Source: Bacteroidota bacterium
GTDB taxonomy: Bacteria > Bacteroidota > Bacteroidia > NS11-12g > UBA955
DNA length: 33,257 nt
Assembly: GCA_016868785.1 (NCBI GenBank)
Contig: VGFS01000024.1
Location: 1 to 33,257, forward strand
Reading direction: 5' to 3'
Numbering within the stretch: position 1 is the first letter of the stretch; every line of letters starts with the position of its first letter. This document shows positions 8,647 through 20,998 of the stretch, one piece after another. The notes beneath the pieces were generated by a model that worked only from the letters and a program-made list of their open reading frames with translations, made no database searches and was not told where the DNA came from. The position numbers were made by a program, and so were the translations under genes.

Positions 8647-9645
8647 TTATTCTAAGGTGAAGTTGTTTTTCTGACGCATCAATCCGCGTGTCCACAACTC
8701 TGCAGTGTATTTTCCTTTCATCAATTTGCCGGTCAGCAAACCTTTTTCAGGGAAGCTCCACTTCACCTTCTGCAACGCACCATCAAACTGAATGGTGTTT
8801 TTCAAGCTGGTTACTTTGCTCTTATCGGTCAATTTGGTGTTGGTAGTTGACAAAACCCCACCGTTAGGATCGATGATGCGAATGATCACTTCTTCCTCCA
8901 ATGGCTCAATAACCATCGGATTTTCCAATACATCAAAGGTTACACGAATTTTCTCAACGCTCTTGGCTTTCATGGTCTCAGAAATGATACCTTTCTTGTC
9001 GTATAACCCTGCAACCAACAAAGCACCAAATTGAGGGCGTGCACCTTTATCCAAACGATCTTTCAATTCTACATTTTCTGATTCCAAAGTAGCAGAACGA
9101 TCTTTTTCAGCATTCAATTGAGTCATATAGTCGTTTTTCTCTTTGGTTAAAGACTCTATCAACGCCATCAACTCAGCCACTTTGGCTTTGGCTTCTTCCA
9201 ATTGCTTTCTCAAATCTTCCACATTCGCATCGCTGCCTTTACCTGTTTTACCAGATTTAGCCGCTTTGCGCGATTCCTTGGTCGATGTTTTACCACCGGC
9301 AGAAGCGGTTGAAGTACCTTCACCTGAGATTCCACTGGCAATTTCGCGACGCAAGCGATAGATCTCTTGCATAGCAGCAATCACCCTTGGATTTTTATCA
9401 CCCTCCAATTCTTCCACTTTCAATACCAAAGTTTGGTTTTCGTTTTGGAAAGTTTGAATCACGTTGTTCAGTGAATCTTCCATTTTGTTTAACACATCTT
9501 GCAAAGAATCTTTTGACTTCATTACAGCCATTTTGTTTTGCAATTCTTTGTCGCTCTCCATTTTGTTAATATACAAAAAAGTATTGCTTCCCAATGAAGC
9601 CAACAACAAAATCACGAGCACTGCGGTTAATGCGGTTCTGTTCAT
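8647..9645 (-). CDS. Membrane-anchored coiled-coil protein, function unknown
   Basis: I do not recognise a named family for this 332-residue protein. Residues 5-25 form one hydrophobic segment without a clear cleavage site, so it is probably an inner-membrane anchor with the rest in the periplasm. A first coiled coil spans about 28-105. A low-complexity Gly/Ser/Thr/Lys linker spans about 107-140, and a second coiled coil about 141-200. A compact beta-rich C-terminal domain follows at about 205-332, containing a run of alternating hydrophobics (EEVIIRIIDP) and the ending KGKYTAELWTRG. The shape suggests a structural or scaffolding envelope protein. It has its own -7 box 7 nt upstream and lies after the thioredoxin-like gene on the same strand. 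A strong terminator follows. That it is a real gene is nearly certain; any function is not. Confidence 0.85.
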   Translation of the reverse strand: MNRTALTAVLVILLLASLGSNTFLYINKMESDKELQNKMAVMKSKDSLQDVLNKMEDSLNNVIQTFQNENQTLVLKVEELEGDKNPRVIAAMQEIYRLRREIASGISGEGTSTASAGGKTSTKESRKAAKSGKTGKGSDANVEDLRKQLEEAKAKVAELMALIESLTKEKNDYMTQLNAEKDRSATLESENVELKDRLDKGARPQFGALLVAGLYDKKGIISETMKAKSVEKIRVTFDVLENPMVIEPLEEEVIIRIIDPNGGVLSTTNTKLTDKSKVTSLKNTIQFDGALQKVKWSFPEKGLLTGKLMKGKYTAELWTRGLMRQKNNFTLE

Positions 9646-9652
9646 ACAACAA

Positions 9653-9660
9653 CAAAGGTA
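9653..9660 (-). promoter_or_regulatory. -7 box of the coiled-coil protein gene
   Basis: TACCTTTG on the minus strand matches TAnnTTTG and ends 7 nt before the ATG at 9645. I see no well-spaced -33 element. A TTG lies only 10 nt upstream. Confidence 0.55.
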
Positions 9661-11387: not shown

Positions 11388-13877
11388 CTATTGAGATTTA
11401 TCCTTCTCTTTTTCTTGCAACACTACATGAATGCCGATGGGATGGGTCACTGCTTTGTTGGTTAACGCCAAATCCAATACTTGCAACATGTTGGTGACGT
11501 ACGAAAACTTCAAACCCTCCAAGTATTTCGCGGGGATATCCAGAACATCTTTTTGGTTTTGCTCACACAAAATCACTTCCTTGATGCCGGCGCGTTTGGC
11601 AGCCAACAATTTTTCTTTGATCCCTCCCACTGGAAGCACTTTGCCCCTCAGCGTAATTTCACCTGTCATCGCCAAATGGCTTTTCACCTTGTTTTGGGTA
11701 AACAAAGAGGCCAAACTGGTCAAGATCGCAATCCCCGCACTTGGCCCGTCTTTGGGTATCGCCCCAGCAGGAAAGTGTACATGAATATCCCAGTGGTTGA
11801 ACACCCGGGAATCAACATTCAAATATTCGGCGTGCGCCTTTAAGTAGGATTTGGCCAGCATCACGCTTTCTTTCATCACATCACCGAGTTGTCCAGTAAT
11901 CAACAATTGGCCTTTACCCCGCGACAGTTTGCTCTCCACAAACAATACAGAACCGCCCATCGGACTCCATGCCAATCCAGAAACCACACCGGCCGTTTCA
12001 TTGTTTTCGTACATTTCGGGCTCCAGTTTTTCGGCACCAAGAATGACCTCTACCTCAGACACCCCGATTTGTTTTTTCAATGGTTCATCCAGGGCGATGG
12101 ATTTCGCCAAAGACCGCGCCAAAGCTGCCACTCGCTTATCCAGCGATCGCACCCCACTCTCCCGCGTGTATTGCTCAATGATGACCTCCAAAGCTTTGTC
12201 TGCAACCTTAAACTGCGTCGATTTCAACCCATGGGCTTTGCGCTGTTTGGGAATCAAATATTTCTTCGCGATTTCAATTTTCTCTTCGAGGCTGTATCCA
12301 TGAATTTCAATGATTTCCATGCGATCCAACAAAGCGGGTTGAATGGTATCCAAATTGTTGGCGGTGGCCACAAACAGCACTTTGCTTAAATCGTAATCCA
12401 ACTCTAGGTAGTTGTCGTAAAACGTGCTGTTTTGTTCTGGATCCAACACCTCAAGCATGGCAGAAGATGGATCTCCACGAAAATCCCTGCCCAATTTATC
12501 TATCTCATCCAAGACAAACACCGGATTTGAGGTGCCTGACTTCTTCAAATTCTGCAATATGCGGCCGGGCATCGCCCCGATGTAAGTTTTACGGTGTCCA
12601 CGAACTTCCGATTCATCGTGCAATCCACCCAAACTCATACGCACATATTTCCGTCCCAAAGCACGGGCAATACTCTTACCCAGCGAGGTTTTTCCCACAC
12701 CTGGAGGGCCATACAAACAAATGATGGGAGAACGCATATCGCCTTTGAGCTTCAAAACGGCCAGGTATTCCAAAATCCGTTTCTTCACTTTCTCCAAACC
12801 AAAATGGTCCTCTTCAAATACCTTTTGCGCATGATGGATGTCGAAATTGTCACTGGTAAGGGTATCCCAAGGCAAATCCAACATCAACTGAACGTAATTG
12901 AGTCCCACAGAATAGTCGGGAGAAGCCGGATTTACACGCATCAAACGATCCAACTCTTTGTTGAAATGCTCACGGGTTTCCTTGCTCCACAGCTTGGTAT
13001 TCCCTTTTTCGCGCAGATTTTGGATTTCTTTATCGGGAGAGTCTCCACCCAACTCTTCTTGGATGGCACGAATCTGCTGCTGCAAGAAATACTCCTTTTG
13101 CTGCTTGTCCATGTCGGTCCGAACCTTACTCTGAATCTGGTCTTTCAGTTCTAGCAGTTGCAATTCCTGGGTAACATGTGTCAGCACCATGGTGGCTCGC
13201 TGCGCTGGATCGAGGGTTTCGAGCAGCGTTTGTTTCTCGTTTTGCGAGATGTTCAAGTTGCTGCTCACAAAGTGAATCAGAAACGTTTTTGAGTCGATGT
13301 TCCTCAAAGCCACACTGGCCTCTGACGGGATTTGGGGCGACAAATTGATGATTTTGTGCGAAATGTCGCGTATCGAGTCGATGGTGGCCTTATATTCTTT
13401 GGTTTCTTTTCCGTCAACATCGGGCAAGGAACTCACTTTGGCTTTGAAATAGGGCTCTGTTTGGGTATACTCGTCGATGTTGATTCGTCGTTTACCCTGC
13501 AGAATCACGGTTGAACTGCCATCGGGCATGCGCATCATGCGAATAATTTGGGCCAGGGTACCAACCGTGTATAGGTCATCGATGCTAGGATCCTCTACAT
13601 TGGGGTTTTTCTGGGCCACCACGGCGATAATCTTCCCGCGTTTATTGGCGTCTTTGATGAGGCGGATGCTTTTATCTCGTCCAACGGTGATTGGAAAAAT
13701 CACCCCGGGGTAAAGCACGGTGTTGCGCATGGTGAGCACAGACAGCTCCGCGGGCACTTCTATTTTATTACTTTCATCCTCTTCTTGTTTGGAGAACAAT
13801 GGCAAAAATTCTGGCGCATCGTCAAAAGAATCGGAGTCGGAATCGTTGGCAAAAAACACTTCTTTGTTGTTAAACAT
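11388..13877 (-). CDS. lon: ATP-dependent protease Lon
   Basis: An 829-residue cytoplasmic AAA+ protease that degrades misfolded and regulatory proteins. The N-terminal substrate-binding LON domain spans about residues 42-245, after a 40-residue acidic Ser/Asp-rich extension. A coiled-coil helical region follows. The AAA+ module has Walker A GPPGVGKT at 390-397 and Walker B VFVLDEID at 453-460. The C-terminal peptidase has the Ser713/Lys756 dyad (PKDGPSAGIA; GGIKEKLLAAKRAG), spaced 43 residues apart as in E. coli Ser679/Lys722. All key residues are present. It is the first gene of a minus-strand block whose next members are a small membrane protein and a secreted protein. The start has a TAnnTTTG box only 7 nt upstream and a sigma-54-like element beside it. 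Confidence 0.97.
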   Translation of the reverse strand: MFNNKEVFFANDSDSDSFDDAPEFLPLFSKQEEDESNKIEVPAELSVLTMRNTVLYPGVIFPITVGRDKSIRLIKDANKRGKIIAVVAQKNPNVEDPSIDDLYTVGTLAQIIRMMRMPDGSSTVILQGKRRINIDEYTQTEPYFKAKVSSLPDVDGKETKEYKATIDSIRDISHKIINLSPQIPSEASVALRNIDSKTFLIHFVSSNLNISQNEKQTLLETLDPAQRATMVLTHVTQELQLLELKDQIQSKVRTDMDKQQKEYFLQQQIRAIQEELGGDSPDKEIQNLREKGNTKLWSKETREHFNKELDRLMRVNPASPDYSVGLNYVQLMLDLPWDTLTSDNFDIHHAQKVFEEDHFGLEKVKKRILEYLAVLKLKGDMRSPIICLYGPPGVGKTSLGKSIARALGRKYVRMSLGGLHDESEVRGHRKTYIGAMPGRILQNLKKSGTSNPVFVLDEIDKLGRDFRGDPSSAMLEVLDPEQNSTFYDNYLELDYDLSKVLFVATANNLDTIQPALLDRMEIIEIHGYSLEEKIEIAKKYLIPKQRKAHGLKSTQFKVADKALEVIIEQYTRESGVRSLDKRVAALARSLAKSIALDEPLKKQIGVSEVEVILGAEKLEPEMYENNETAGVVSGLAWSPMGGSVLFVESKLSRGKGQLLITGQLGDVMKESVMLAKSYLKAHAEYLNVDSRVFNHWDIHVHFPAGAIPKDGPSAGIAILTSLASLFTQNKVKSHLAMTGEITLRGKVLPVGGIKEKLLAAKRAGIKEVILCEQNQKDVLDIPAKYLEGLKFSYVTNMLQVLDLALTNKAVTHPIGIHVVLQEKEKDKSQ

Positions 13878-13884
13878 CGGACTG

Positions 13885-13908
13885 CAAAAATATCAATGCT
13901 TGTGCCAA
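13885..13908 (-). promoter_or_regulatory. lon promoter region: -7 box plus sigma-54-like element
   Basis: On the minus strand, TATTTTTG (13885-13892) matches TAnnTTTG and lies 7 nt before the lon ATG. Directly upstream, 13893-13908 reads TTGGCAC, five bases, then TTGA. This matches the sigma-54 consensus TTGGCAC-N5-TTGC except for the last base. The two elements abut, so either could be used. The sigma-A reading is safer because it recurs at other genes here. Confidence 0.5.
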
Positions 13909-17623: not shown

Positions 17624-18097
17624 CGATTTTTCTTCGAGTTCGTAGCGTTCGTAATTCACATCAATTTCGGTAGGCTTTGACTGAGCCGCCATTGTCGCCA
17701 GCACATCACAACGCTCGTTTTCTATGATGCCCGCATGTCCTTTCACCCAGTAAAACTTTGGCTTGTGAATTTCGTAGAGTCCCAAAAATGCCTGCCACAA
17801 ATCTACATTCTTCACCTTTTTCCACCCTTTGGCCTTCCATCCAAACAACCAGCGTTTTTCAATGGCATCGCAGACATATTTGCTGTCGGTGTAGACTTGA
17901 ATGGGCAAACCAGGCGACTTAATATGTTTCAGCGCCATGATCACCGCCAACAACTCCATGCGGTTGTTGGTGGTTCGTCGAAAACCACCCGATAGTTCTT
18001 TGCGATGTTCAGCATGCATCAAAACAGCGCCATAGCCGCCTGGGCCGGGATTGCCGAGGGCTGCTCCGTCTGTGTAGATGATAATTGGCAAAGACAT
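17603..18097 (-). CDS. rnhA: Ribonuclease HI
   Basis: A 164-residue enzyme that cuts the RNA strand of RNA-DNA hybrids, such as Okazaki primers and R-loops. The four metal-binding acids are present: Asp10 (IYTDGA), Glu48 (NNRMELLA), Asp71 (YTDSKYV) and Asp131 (NERCDVLA), along with His121 (VKGHAG). The basic handle region KRWLFGWKAKGWKKVKN at 81-97 marks the bacterial type. A 20-25 residue acidic tail follows the catalytic core, making it slightly longer than the 155-residue E. coli enzyme. The end overlaps recN by 21 bp in convergent orientation. The promoter box is only 4 nt from the start codon and diverges from cinA. Confidence 0.96.
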   Translation of the reverse strand: MSLPIIIYTDGAALGNPGPGGYGAVLMHAEHRKELSGGFRRTTNNRMELLAVIMALKHIKSPGLPIQVYTDSKYVCDAIEKRWLFGWKAKGWKKVKNVDLWQAFLGLYEIHKPKFYWVKGHAGIIENERCDVLATMAAQSKPTEIDVNYERYELEEKSSGGLDL

Positions 18098-18101
18098 GCA
18101 G

Positions 18102-18109
18102 CAAAGTTA
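18102..18109 (-). promoter_or_regulatory. rnhA -7 box, 4 nt from the start codon
   Basis: TAACTTTG on the minus strand matches TAnnTTTG. Only CTGC separates it from the ATG at 18097, so the predicted transcript starts at or inside the start codon. No -33 element sits at the usual distance; TTG copies lie 15 and 25 nt upstream. Confidence 0.6.
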
Positions 18110-18119
18110 ACGGTTTGTG

Positions 18120-18152
18120 TTGGTCAAGTTCTTGCAACGGGGCGTATTTTTG
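18120..18152 (+). promoter_or_regulatory. cinA promoter, -7 box 4 nt from the start codon
   Basis: TTG (18120-18122), a 22-nt spacer, then TATTTTTG (18145-18152), which matches TAnnTTTG. Only TGTC separates the box from the ATG at 18157. The frame is open upstream to 18085, but that stretch contains this promoter and the rnhA start, so ATG 18157 is chosen. Confidence 0.65.
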
Positions 18153-18156
18153 TGTC

Positions 18157-19410
18157 ATGGAAGCGGAAATCATTACCATAGGCGATGAATTGTTGATTGG
18201 TCAAACCATCGACACCAACAGTGCTTATTTTGGACAACAATTGGGCAGTATTGGCATTTCCATTTCACGGAGAACGGCGGTGAGCGATAAAGAATTGGCC
18301 ATTTTATCGGCATTGTCGGAGGCATTTTCCCGGGTAAACCTTGTCATCATGACCGGCGGATTGGGCCCTACCAAAGACGACATCACCAAAAAAACCCTCT
18401 GCCAATATTATCAATGTGGCTACAGACGCGACGTTGCGGTGTTGTCGCACCTTGAATCGTTGTTTGCCTCCCGCGGGCGACTTATCTTAGAAACCAACAA
18501 AGTTCAAGCCGACGTGCCCGAGTCTTGCGAAACCCTCCATAACGCCGTGGGAACGGCACCCGGCATGTGGTTCGATCATCAAGAAAAGGTACTCATTTCA
18601 TTGCCCGGTGTACCCGGAGAAGTGTATCACCTGACGGAAGAACGGGTTATCCCACGCTTAAAATCCAAGTTTCCATTACCAACGGTAGAGCATCGCACCC
18701 TCATTACGTTGCAGAAAGCCGAAAGTCTGTTATCACGACAGCTAGAAACTTTTGAGGCATCATTGCCACCACATTTGTCCTTGGCCTATTTACCAAGTTT
18801 CAACATGGTAAAATTGCGCCTATCTCAGGTCTCAAATTCAGGGGAAACGAACGGTGATATCGACGAGTACTTTTCAAAGCTGCAGACAGCTATTCCCGAG
18901 GATGTGTTTTGTTTGGGCGATATCGATCCTGCCTTGTACTTGTCTAATTACCTCATTAAAAACAACATAAGATTCACCACCGCCGAAAGTTGCACGGGTG
19001 GTTGGGTGGCCCATCGGCTGATGCAGGCCCCGGGCATATCTGCCGTTTATCCGGGTTCGTTGGTGGCTTATGCGAATGATGTGAAACAGGGTGAATTGGG
19101 CGTAGACCCAACCGTTATTGAAGCGCATGGTGCTGTAAGTGAACCTTGCGCATTGGCCATGGCAAAAGGGGCGTTAAAAAAGTTTCAAGTGGATCTGGCC
19201 ATAGCAACCACAGGCATTGCAGGTCCTGGTGGGGGAACCAAAGAGAAACCCGTAGGATTGGTTTACATCGCGGTGGCAACAAATGATGAGCATTTTTGTA
19301 AGCCATTTCGGTTGTTTGGCAATCGCGAACAGATCATTCAACGCAGCAGCAATGCCGCCCTTTGGATGGTAAAACAACTGTTGAAATTGCCTTCGGATAC
19401 CGCCCTGTAA
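18157..19410 (+). CDS. cinA: CinA: nucleotide pyrophosphatase / NMN amidohydrolase family protein
   Basis: A 417-residue two-domain protein. The N-terminal half (about 1-170) is the MoaB/MoeA-like COG1058 domain, with [13 protein letters not shown] at 4-16 and [10 protein letters not shown] at 66-75, linked in other bacteria to ADP-ribose pyrophosphatase activity. The C-terminal PncC domain (about 258-410) deamidates nicotinamide mononucleotide in NAD recycling. Its motifs are AESCTGG at 276-282 and [10 protein letters not shown] at 352-361. Both halves look intact and the length is standard. It is probably monocistronic: it has its own promoter, and guaA downstream has another. The name refers to competence induction in Gram-positive bacteria, which need not apply here. 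Confidence 0.95.
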
Positions 19411-19447: not shown

Positions 19448-19455
19448 TACCTTTG
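19448..19455 (+). promoter_or_regulatory. guaA -7 box
   Basis: TACCTTTG matches TAnnTTTG and ends 10 nt before the ATG at 19466. I see no well-placed TTG about 20 nt further upstream, so the promoter may need help or be weak. Confidence 0.5.
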
Positions 19456-19465
19456 CCGTACATTC

Positions 19466-20998
19466 ATGACCGAAAAAATTCTCATCCTCGACTTTGGTTC
19501 ACAGTACACGCAATTAATTGCCCGTCGGTTACGCGAACTTTTCGTGTATTGCGAAATCCATCCGTTTAATCACATCCCTGAGTTAACGCCCGACATCAAA
19601 GGAATTATCCTGTCTGGCAGCCCCTGTTCTGTTAACGAAACAGACGCGCCGATGGTCGATTTGGATCGTTTAATGTCGCACGGTCCCCTACTCGGCGTTT
19701 GCTATGGCGCACAGCTGTTGGCCAAAGTAAAAGGCGGTGTTGTGTCGCGCAGCGACCACAGAGAATACGGCAGAGCCATGATGATCCGCTCGCAAGAGGG
19801 CAATGCTTTGCTACAAGGATTGAGCGCAGAATCCCAAGTTTGGATGAGCCATGGCGATACCATCACCGCTTTGCCCAATCATGCAACCATCATCGCAAAA
19901 ACAGAATCCATTCCCGTGGCGGCCTTCAGCATGGAAAGCCAAAACCCTGTTTATGGTATACAATTTCACCCCGAGGTGTATCACAGCACCGAAGGATTGG
20001 CCCTGTTGAAAAATTTCGCCTACGGCATTTGTGGCTGTGCGGGAGATTGGACCCCCGGGCATTTTATTTATGAAACAGTGGCCCAGATTCGGGCTACGGT
20101 TGGACAAGATCAAGTCATTTTGGGATTATCGGGCGGCGTTGACAGTTCGGTGGCGGCGTTGTTGTTGCACAAAGCCATCGGCAAGCAACTACATTGCATT
20201 TTCATCGATAACGGTTTGTTGCGCAAGAACGAGTTTGCCCTGGTTCAAGAGGCCTACAAACAACTGGACTTAAACGTGATTGGCGTTGATGCTTCCCAAC
20301 AGTTTTATGATGCTTTGGCTAGTTTGACCGATCCTGAAGCCAAGCGCAAAGCCATTGGACGCGTGTTCGTGGAAGTCTTCCAAGACGAAAGTGCAAAAAT
20401 CAAGGACGCCAAGTGGCTAGCACAAGGCACCATCTACCCCGATGTGATTGAAAGCGTGAGCGTTAAAGGTCCGAGCGCCACCATCAAAAGTCACCACAAC
20501 GTGGGAGGATTGCCAGAAAAAATGAGTTTAAAAATCATCGAGCCATTGCGCAGTTTGTTCAAAGACGAAGTGCGAAGGGTTGGCGATACGATGGGTTTAC
20601 CGCACGACATCCTTCACAGACATCCTTTTCCAGGTCCTGGATTGGGGATCCGCATTTTGGGCGATATCACTGAGGCCAAAGTCAAATTGTTGCAAGAAGC
20701 CGATTGGGTTTACATGGAAAAGTTGCGTGAGCATGGATGGTATAACAAAATTTGGCAAGCTGGCGCCATATTGCTGCCTATCCAAAGTGTAGGAGTCATG
20801 GGCGATGAAAGAACGTACGAGCAAGTGGTTGCGTTGCGCGCTGTTACTAGCACCGATGGAATGACCGCCGACTGGGTACATTTACCCTACGAAATCTTGG
20901 CCGATATTAGCAACAGCATCATCAACCGCGTGAGGGGTATCAACCGCGTGGTTTACGATATTAGTTCTAAGCCACCCGCAACCATAGAATGGGAATAA
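19466..20998 (+). CDS. guaA: GMP synthase (glutamine-hydrolysing)
   Basis: A 510-residue enzyme that aminates XMP to GMP, the last step of guanine nucleotide synthesis. The N-terminal class I glutamine amidotransferase has Cys79 (GVCYGAQ) and His168/Glu170 (GIQFHPEV). The ATP-pyrophosphatase domain has the P-loop SGGVDSS at 222-228. The C-terminal dimerisation domain ends with the conserved [18 protein letters not shown]-type tail. All catalytic residues are present and the length is usual. The next gene starts 4 nt downstream, so it heads an operon with the periplasmic-binding-like gene and the rsmB-like gene. Confidence 0.97.

Follow-up and report, generated by a model that had tools for sequence, protein, structure and literature searches.

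Promoter boxes four nucleotides from the start codons of divergent rnhA and cinA genes in a Bacteroidota lineage: probable leaderless mRNAs as part of a wider design

The divergent rnhA-cinA region

The window (the whole stretch of DNA that was analysed, 33,257 nucleotides) contains divergently oriented rnhA and cinA genes with closely spaced start sites (Table 1). The rnhA product matches the ribonuclease HI model NF001236 above its cut-off (E 5.5e-53) and also PF00075, and the cinA product is identified as CinA by TIGR00200, again above cut-off (E 3.4e-87), with the domains PF02464 and PF00994. A recN-like gene, for which RecN model scores are slightly below the cut-offs, is located on the far side of rnhA, and guaA lies downstream of cinA. 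The genes at 26–31 kb resemble, and are presumably, gldK-N of the type IX secretion system.

Both rnhA and cinA are preceded by an exact match to TAnnTTTG (TAHHTTTG), TAACTTTG and TATTTTTG respectively, and the coordinates agree exactly with the first-pass annotation, which described two opposed boxes that each leave four bases before an ATG. The primary-sigma promoter of the Bacteroidota is composed of −33/−7 elements with the sequences TTTG / TAnnTTTG (PMC6847099), and the two boxes described here are exact TAHHTTTG matches that likewise precede first genes. The segment 18095–18159 is, as part of the explanation that we think best, likely to be a compact divergent promoter region.

Table 1. 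Coordinates of features in the rnhA-cinA region of the window.
Feature	Position	Strand	Comment
rnhA, ribonuclease HI, 164 aa	17603..18097	minus	ATG at 18097-18095; NF001236 equivalog above cut-off, PF00075
rnhA box-to-start gap, 4 nt	18098..18101	minus	Length constant, letters variable in 14/14 genus loci
rnhA −7 promoter box TAACTTTG (putative)	18102..18109	minus	TAACTTTG or TAAATTTG in 14/14 genus loci
Inter-box spacer, 35 bp	18110..18144	no strand	35 bp in 7/14 genus loci, 11 bp in the other 7
cinA −7 promoter box TATTTTTG (putative)	18145..18152	plus	Same letters in 14/14 genus loci
cinA box-to-start gap TGTC, 4 nt	18153..18156	plus	ATG next, at 18157-18159
cinA (competence/damage-inducible protein A, NMN deamidase-related), 417 aa from ATG	18157..19410	plus	TIGR00200 and TIGR00199 above cut-off

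Elsewhere in the window there is a box at gap 10 before a frame at 54 (36-54), one at gap 7 before a minus-strand frame starting at 9645 (9645-9660), and one at gap 7 before a minus-strand frame starting at 13877 (13877-13892), which we take to be Lon-like.

A −33 element for the rnhA/cinA pair was looked for and none was convincing. Among the promoters of this genome with gaps of 4–7 nt (sampled as described below) there is no clear TTG peak either, apart from a minor one at 28 nt upstream of the box (9/74), and the −33 element is weak in Flavobacterium johnsoniae too (PMC6847099). The AT-rich profile upstream of the box is alike in short-gap and long-gap promoters.

Searching 58 genomes (the window's own and relatives) with CinA gave a match in 54, of which the best 30 loci could be read; 15 of the genomes searched belong to the genus, and 14 of these have a match. 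All 14 genus loci (our own and 13 relatives) have a divergent rnhA and both gaps of exactly 4, so that the alignment across relatives proposed with the first-pass annotation finds both 4-nt gaps conserved. The relatives' CinA proteins are 62–86% identical to that of the window, and there are 11 distinct intergenic sequences among the 14 loci. Seven loci have 59 bp between the two genes and the other seven have 35 bp, four of the latter being identical to each other; the inter-box spacer thus varies freely while the boxes and the 4-nt lengths are constant. The locus of Bacteroidetes bacterium UBA955 also has a 59 bp intergenic region with both gaps 4, but its sequence is the same as that of L154 and it is hence not independent. 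The more compact arrangement is found in L156, L157, L159-L161, L163 and L164, in which the rnhA and cinA starts are 35 bp apart and the boxes 11 bp apart, such that any −33 region must overlap the other promoter's box or gene.

Outside the genus, the best 30 of 54 include 16 family loci. Only two of these carry the cinA box at gap 4, and eight (including those two) carry it at gap 4–10; the box is farther away in three, and five have none within 60 nt.

Box placement across the genome

Our sample of the 2,065-kb genome consisted of 40 stretches totalling 772 kb, to which the window was added. We analysed it by predicting genes with a hexamer model in a home-made caller that picks start codons blind to the box, and leaving out starts less than 80 nt from a stretch end. 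Among the 638 predicted starts of the later of two gene-calling versions, 27 have a box at a gap of exactly 4, compared with a mean of 0.34 and a maximum of 2 in 100 dinucleotide shuffles. Only two have a box at gaps 0–3 (shuffle mean 1.59), whereas there are 74 at gaps 4–7 (1.76), 20 at gaps 8–11 (1.90), 35 at gaps 12–23 (5.08), and 35 at gaps 24–45 (9.28). The earlier version, with 624 starts, yields similar numbers (2 at gaps 0–3, 29 at gap 4, 76 at gaps 4–7). Controls with permuted motifs (n=29) average 2.0 at gaps 3–7, far below the true box; the highest, ATHHTTGT, reaches 19 and is able to overlap with the true box. A gap of 4 is therefore both the genome-wide mode and the floor of the box-to-start distance, and this is the key result. 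The near-absence of gaps below 4 is expected if the start codon must stay whole. Boxes within 45 nt were found for 166 of the 638 starts, and these gap classes thus cover a minority of genes; more than half of the boxes are at gaps above 7, indicating that leadered genes are common as well.

The box count in the window is ordinary (28 matches to TAnnTTTG with 26.0 expected, i.e. no enrichment), which fits a chance placement of two common octamers at equal distances; it is their position relative to starts that is non-random. The genome-wide excess at gap 4 and the retention of both gaps throughout the genus contradict such a coincidence, and we consider it extremely improbable.

Boxes at gaps 4–7 are associated with the first genes of transcription units, occurring at 55 of 400 first-like genes but only 4 of 184 operon-internal genes (P 2.7e-6), the latter defined as genes following a same-strand neighbor at 20 nt or less; as a divergent pair, rnhA and cinA fit the same pattern of a −7 box ahead of first genes. 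This bias towards first genes indicates that the boxes act as promoters and not as ribosome sites. Upstream of starts an AT-rich bias has been described in Bacteroidetes as well as in other phyla, and it might mark sites for ribosomal protein S1 (PMC5397173), raising the alternative that the TTTG-rich motif is a translation element, a U-rich ribosome site, with the true promoters farther upstream. We find this very unlikely; besides the scarcity at operon-internal genes, the motif is in excess at larger gaps also, and in the 35-bp loci an alternative promoter would have to sit inside the opposite gene.

Comparison of orthologs suggests that the spacing is under selection. A total of 56 genus ortholog pairs were found in randomly placed stretches, and pairs were dropped if they lacked an ATG or GTG within 5 codons, had less than 45% identity, matched only after residue 6, or aligned over less than 60% of the query. 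For genes with gaps of 4–7, the exact gap is kept in all nine box-bearing orthologs (one more has no box), with gaps 4, 5 and 6 each exactly retained, whereas for genes with gaps of 12–45 it is kept in two of five (three more have no box; Fisher P 0.027).

A further possibility is that the two genes are near-leaderless, with translation starting slightly later (e.g. at rnhA codon 3), leaders of about 1–6 nt, and the short gap reflecting a loose preference. A TTG or GTG is present at rnhA codon 3 in all 14 genus loci and would give a 6-nt leader, and gaps of 5, 6 and 7 are frequent in this genome too (13, 14 and 15 boxes). However, the rnhA codon at gap 4 is itself ATG or GTG in 14/14 loci (GTG in seven), the orthologs that have a box retain their short gaps exactly, and cinA has no start codon within the next 5 codons in any of the 14 loci. 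A start farther downstream, which the first-pass annotation had named as fatal to its reading, is therefore excluded in practice for cinA, while for rnhA the codon 3 candidate may be such a start. We regard near-leaderless genes as unlikely, if clearly less so than the preceding two alternatives. There is also an in-frame start codon 5–8 codons upstream of the cinA ATG in 3 of the 14 loci.

The first-pass annotation had further argued that identical paired spacing speaks against chance. This is mostly no evidence in itself, as a genome-wide mode and minimum of 4 accounts for most of the equal spacing of the pair. Our sample includes 82 divergent pairs less than 400 bp apart, and three of these, including rnhA/cinA, are 4/4, whereas permuting the gaps over all 164 starts gives 0.64 such pairs (P 0.014, counting the pair that prompted the question). 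The corresponding permutations yield P 0.08 for equal gaps of any size, and P 0.27 for pairs with both gaps at 4–7, of which there are five. Two equal gaps in one divergent pair are thus mildly unusual at best, and we dropped this as main evidence. The two additional 4/4 pairs are at L031:18320-18382, with 61 bp between starts, and L038:3371-3549, with 177 bp between starts.

Taxonomic reach of the short gap

Short gaps can also be counted in whole genomes, using matches to TAHHTTTG-N-ATG and the ratio of those at gap 4–7 to those at gap 0–3. This ratio exceeds 1.5 in 8/8 genus genomes (median 2.72), 10/14 other family genomes (1.86), 5/13 sister-family genomes (1.26), 6/20 class genomes (1.09), and 3/11 phylum genomes (1.00), although these 66 genomes were hand-picked, with those outside the order chosen for variety and some for a strong signal, and the shares are not survey estimates. 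The control ratio of gap 20–23 to gap 0–3 has medians of 1.02, 1.02, 1.03, 1.18 and 0.79, from genus to phylum. The highest ratio is in a genome of the same family, G269, with 240 TAHHTTTG boxes at gap 4–7 and 36 at 0–3.

When genes are taken into account, the share of boxes (gaps 0–45) that lie at gap 4–7 is 63/144 in our own genome, 24/55 in the genus, 17/70 in the family, 13/51 in the sister family, and 0/15 in one f5-family genome, as sums over the listed genomes excluding the fragments L243 (1.0 kb) and L259 (4.9 kb). Counted with TANNTTTG, 74/166 boxes in our own genome are at gap 4–7 compared with 17/152 across 79 named loci from other Bacteroidota after exclusion of guaA (P 1.9e-11), with the pooled gene model used for the named loci being cruder. 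The short-gap excess is strong in the genus, patchy in the family, and absent from many other groups. Initiator bases were considered as a mark of the RNA start within the genome. In our own leadered promoters a pyrimidine-purine step is commonest at bases 4–5 past the box (0.45 of 74), excluding bases 1–2, but none of the sets for the genus, the family, the order and the named loci has its commonest step there.

Of the named relatives, Bacteroidetes bacterium UBA955 is the nearest, with a GuaA that is 94% identical, and in a GuaA tree the window groups with support only with UBA955 (100/99). The taxonomy entry of UBA955 ends at unclassified Bacteroidota.

The gene guaA itself presents a separate case. 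Of the 78 named Bacteroidota loci for which the start could be resolved (from the set L072-L150, e.g. L072:10001, L103:10001 and L141:10001, with 2/80 starts left out), 31 have an exact TAnnTTTG box 3–5 nt before the ATG, at gap 3 in 14 (Sphingobacteriaceae and Cyclobacteriaceae among others), gap 4 in 15 (Crocinitomicaceae, Hymenobacter and others), and gap 5 in two; in 23 of the 78 there is no box within 60 nt. It is a leaderless-looking gene conserved in genomes that are otherwise mostly leadered, and we found no paper joining leaderless, guaA and Bacteroidota in the literature searched. The guaA gene of the window was considered as a leaderless candidate and rejected, as its box is at gap 10 (19448-19466); that of UBA955 is likewise at gap 10.

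The leaderless reading and its significance

In F. johnsoniae many RNAs start 4 or 5 nt after the box, the box being numbered T-12 A-11 T-8 T-7 T-6 G-5 (PMC6847099), and a gap of 4 would by this measure place +1 on the A of the ATG. At both rnhA and cinA the box position predicts a +1 at the start codon or immediately beside it. We propose that two primary-sigma −7 boxes face away from each other and that each sets the RNA start four bases on, at the initial nucleotide of the start codon, such that rnhA and cinA would be produced as leaderless mRNAs beginning 5′-AUG (or, for the rnhA of seven of the 14 genus loci, 5′-GUG). The ribosome, together with initiator tRNA, would then load directly on the start codon at the 5′ end, with neither a leader nor Shine-Dalgarno pairing. 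With boxes 35 bp apart, or 11 bp in other species, two polymerases should not fit simultaneously, and we infer that they would not bind together.

The first-pass annotation considered both genes leaderless, and the genome-wide box placement, the conservation of the gaps in 14/14 loci, and the F. johnsoniae distance support this, on sequence grounds, as probably correct. Transcription of leaderless rnhA and cinA from back-to-back promoters, as one case of a genus-wide design, is in our judgment a likely explanation. In this design the box and the start codon would be held at a fixed short distance, of which 4 nt is both the commonest and the smallest, and the rnhA/cinA pair is one instance of an arrangement common to much of the genome and genus.

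Leaderless genes are already known in the phylum. Bacteroidetes have been placed among clades with many 'atypical' signals (PMC3160421) and are reported to have many leaderless mRNAs (PMC5397173), and their ribosomes ignore Shine-Dalgarno sequences because the anti-Shine-Dalgarno is masked by bS21, bS18 and bS6 (PMC9976891). The first-pass annotation appealed to the rarity of Shine-Dalgarno sites in the phylum, but this is insufficient as an explanation, as mapped species with the same type of promoter are seldom leaderless: 5.5% of mapped mRNAs are leaderless in F. psychrophilum (PMC9723704) and ~3.7% of 5′ UTRs are shorter than 10 nt in Bacteroides thetaiotaomicron (PMC7366714). The transcript maps for two Flavobacterium species and B. 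thetaiotaomicron suggest that leaderless mRNAs do not fill the Shine-Dalgarno gap. In F. johnsoniae, leaders exceed 10 nt in 87% of predicted transcripts (PMC6847099), in contrast to the lineage described here, where the commonest gap of 4 predicts no leader. The rarity of leaderless mRNAs in mapped members of the phylum suggests that the pattern belongs to the lineage described here. The arrangement is also similar to the TANNNT −10-type box, with the first T 12 bp before the start codon and a preference for short spacing, but in place of TANNNT the box here is the TAnnTTTG of the Bacteroidota. The literature searched gave no report, for Bacteroidota, of a leaderless design that spans a lineage and has gap 4 as its commonest.

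Loss of the anti-Shine-Dalgarno in this lineage was considered because a 14-base 16S end motif had zero exact matches, and was ruled out; the motif is present with a single mismatch and precedes the CCTCC core at the 16S 3′ end in 12/12 genomes searched, including our own (C28:25646-25659). Our own 16S rRNA gene is complete (C28:24142-25659) and its end carries the CCTCC core. As read from the rRNA genes, the anti-Shine-Dalgarno is kept in this lineage as elsewhere in the phylum.

On balance we lean towards the view that leaderless mRNAs have become the commonest promoter design of this lineage (the genus and, to varying degree, the family), in which box and start codon form a single element with a gap of no less than 4 nt and the anti-Shine-Dalgarno core is kept, and that in some species two such units are packed into 35 bp, making rnhA and cinA transcription mutually exclusive. 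If so, nearly half of the recognizable promoters would lie 4–7 nt from the start and would conserve that spacing exactly. The lineage would then offer a natural setting in which to test how start codons are chosen by a ribosome whose anti-Shine-Dalgarno is masked, and why some Bacteroidota lineages turn leaderless and others do not. It would also carry a warning, since such starts may be shifted by gene callers whose training came from leadered species.
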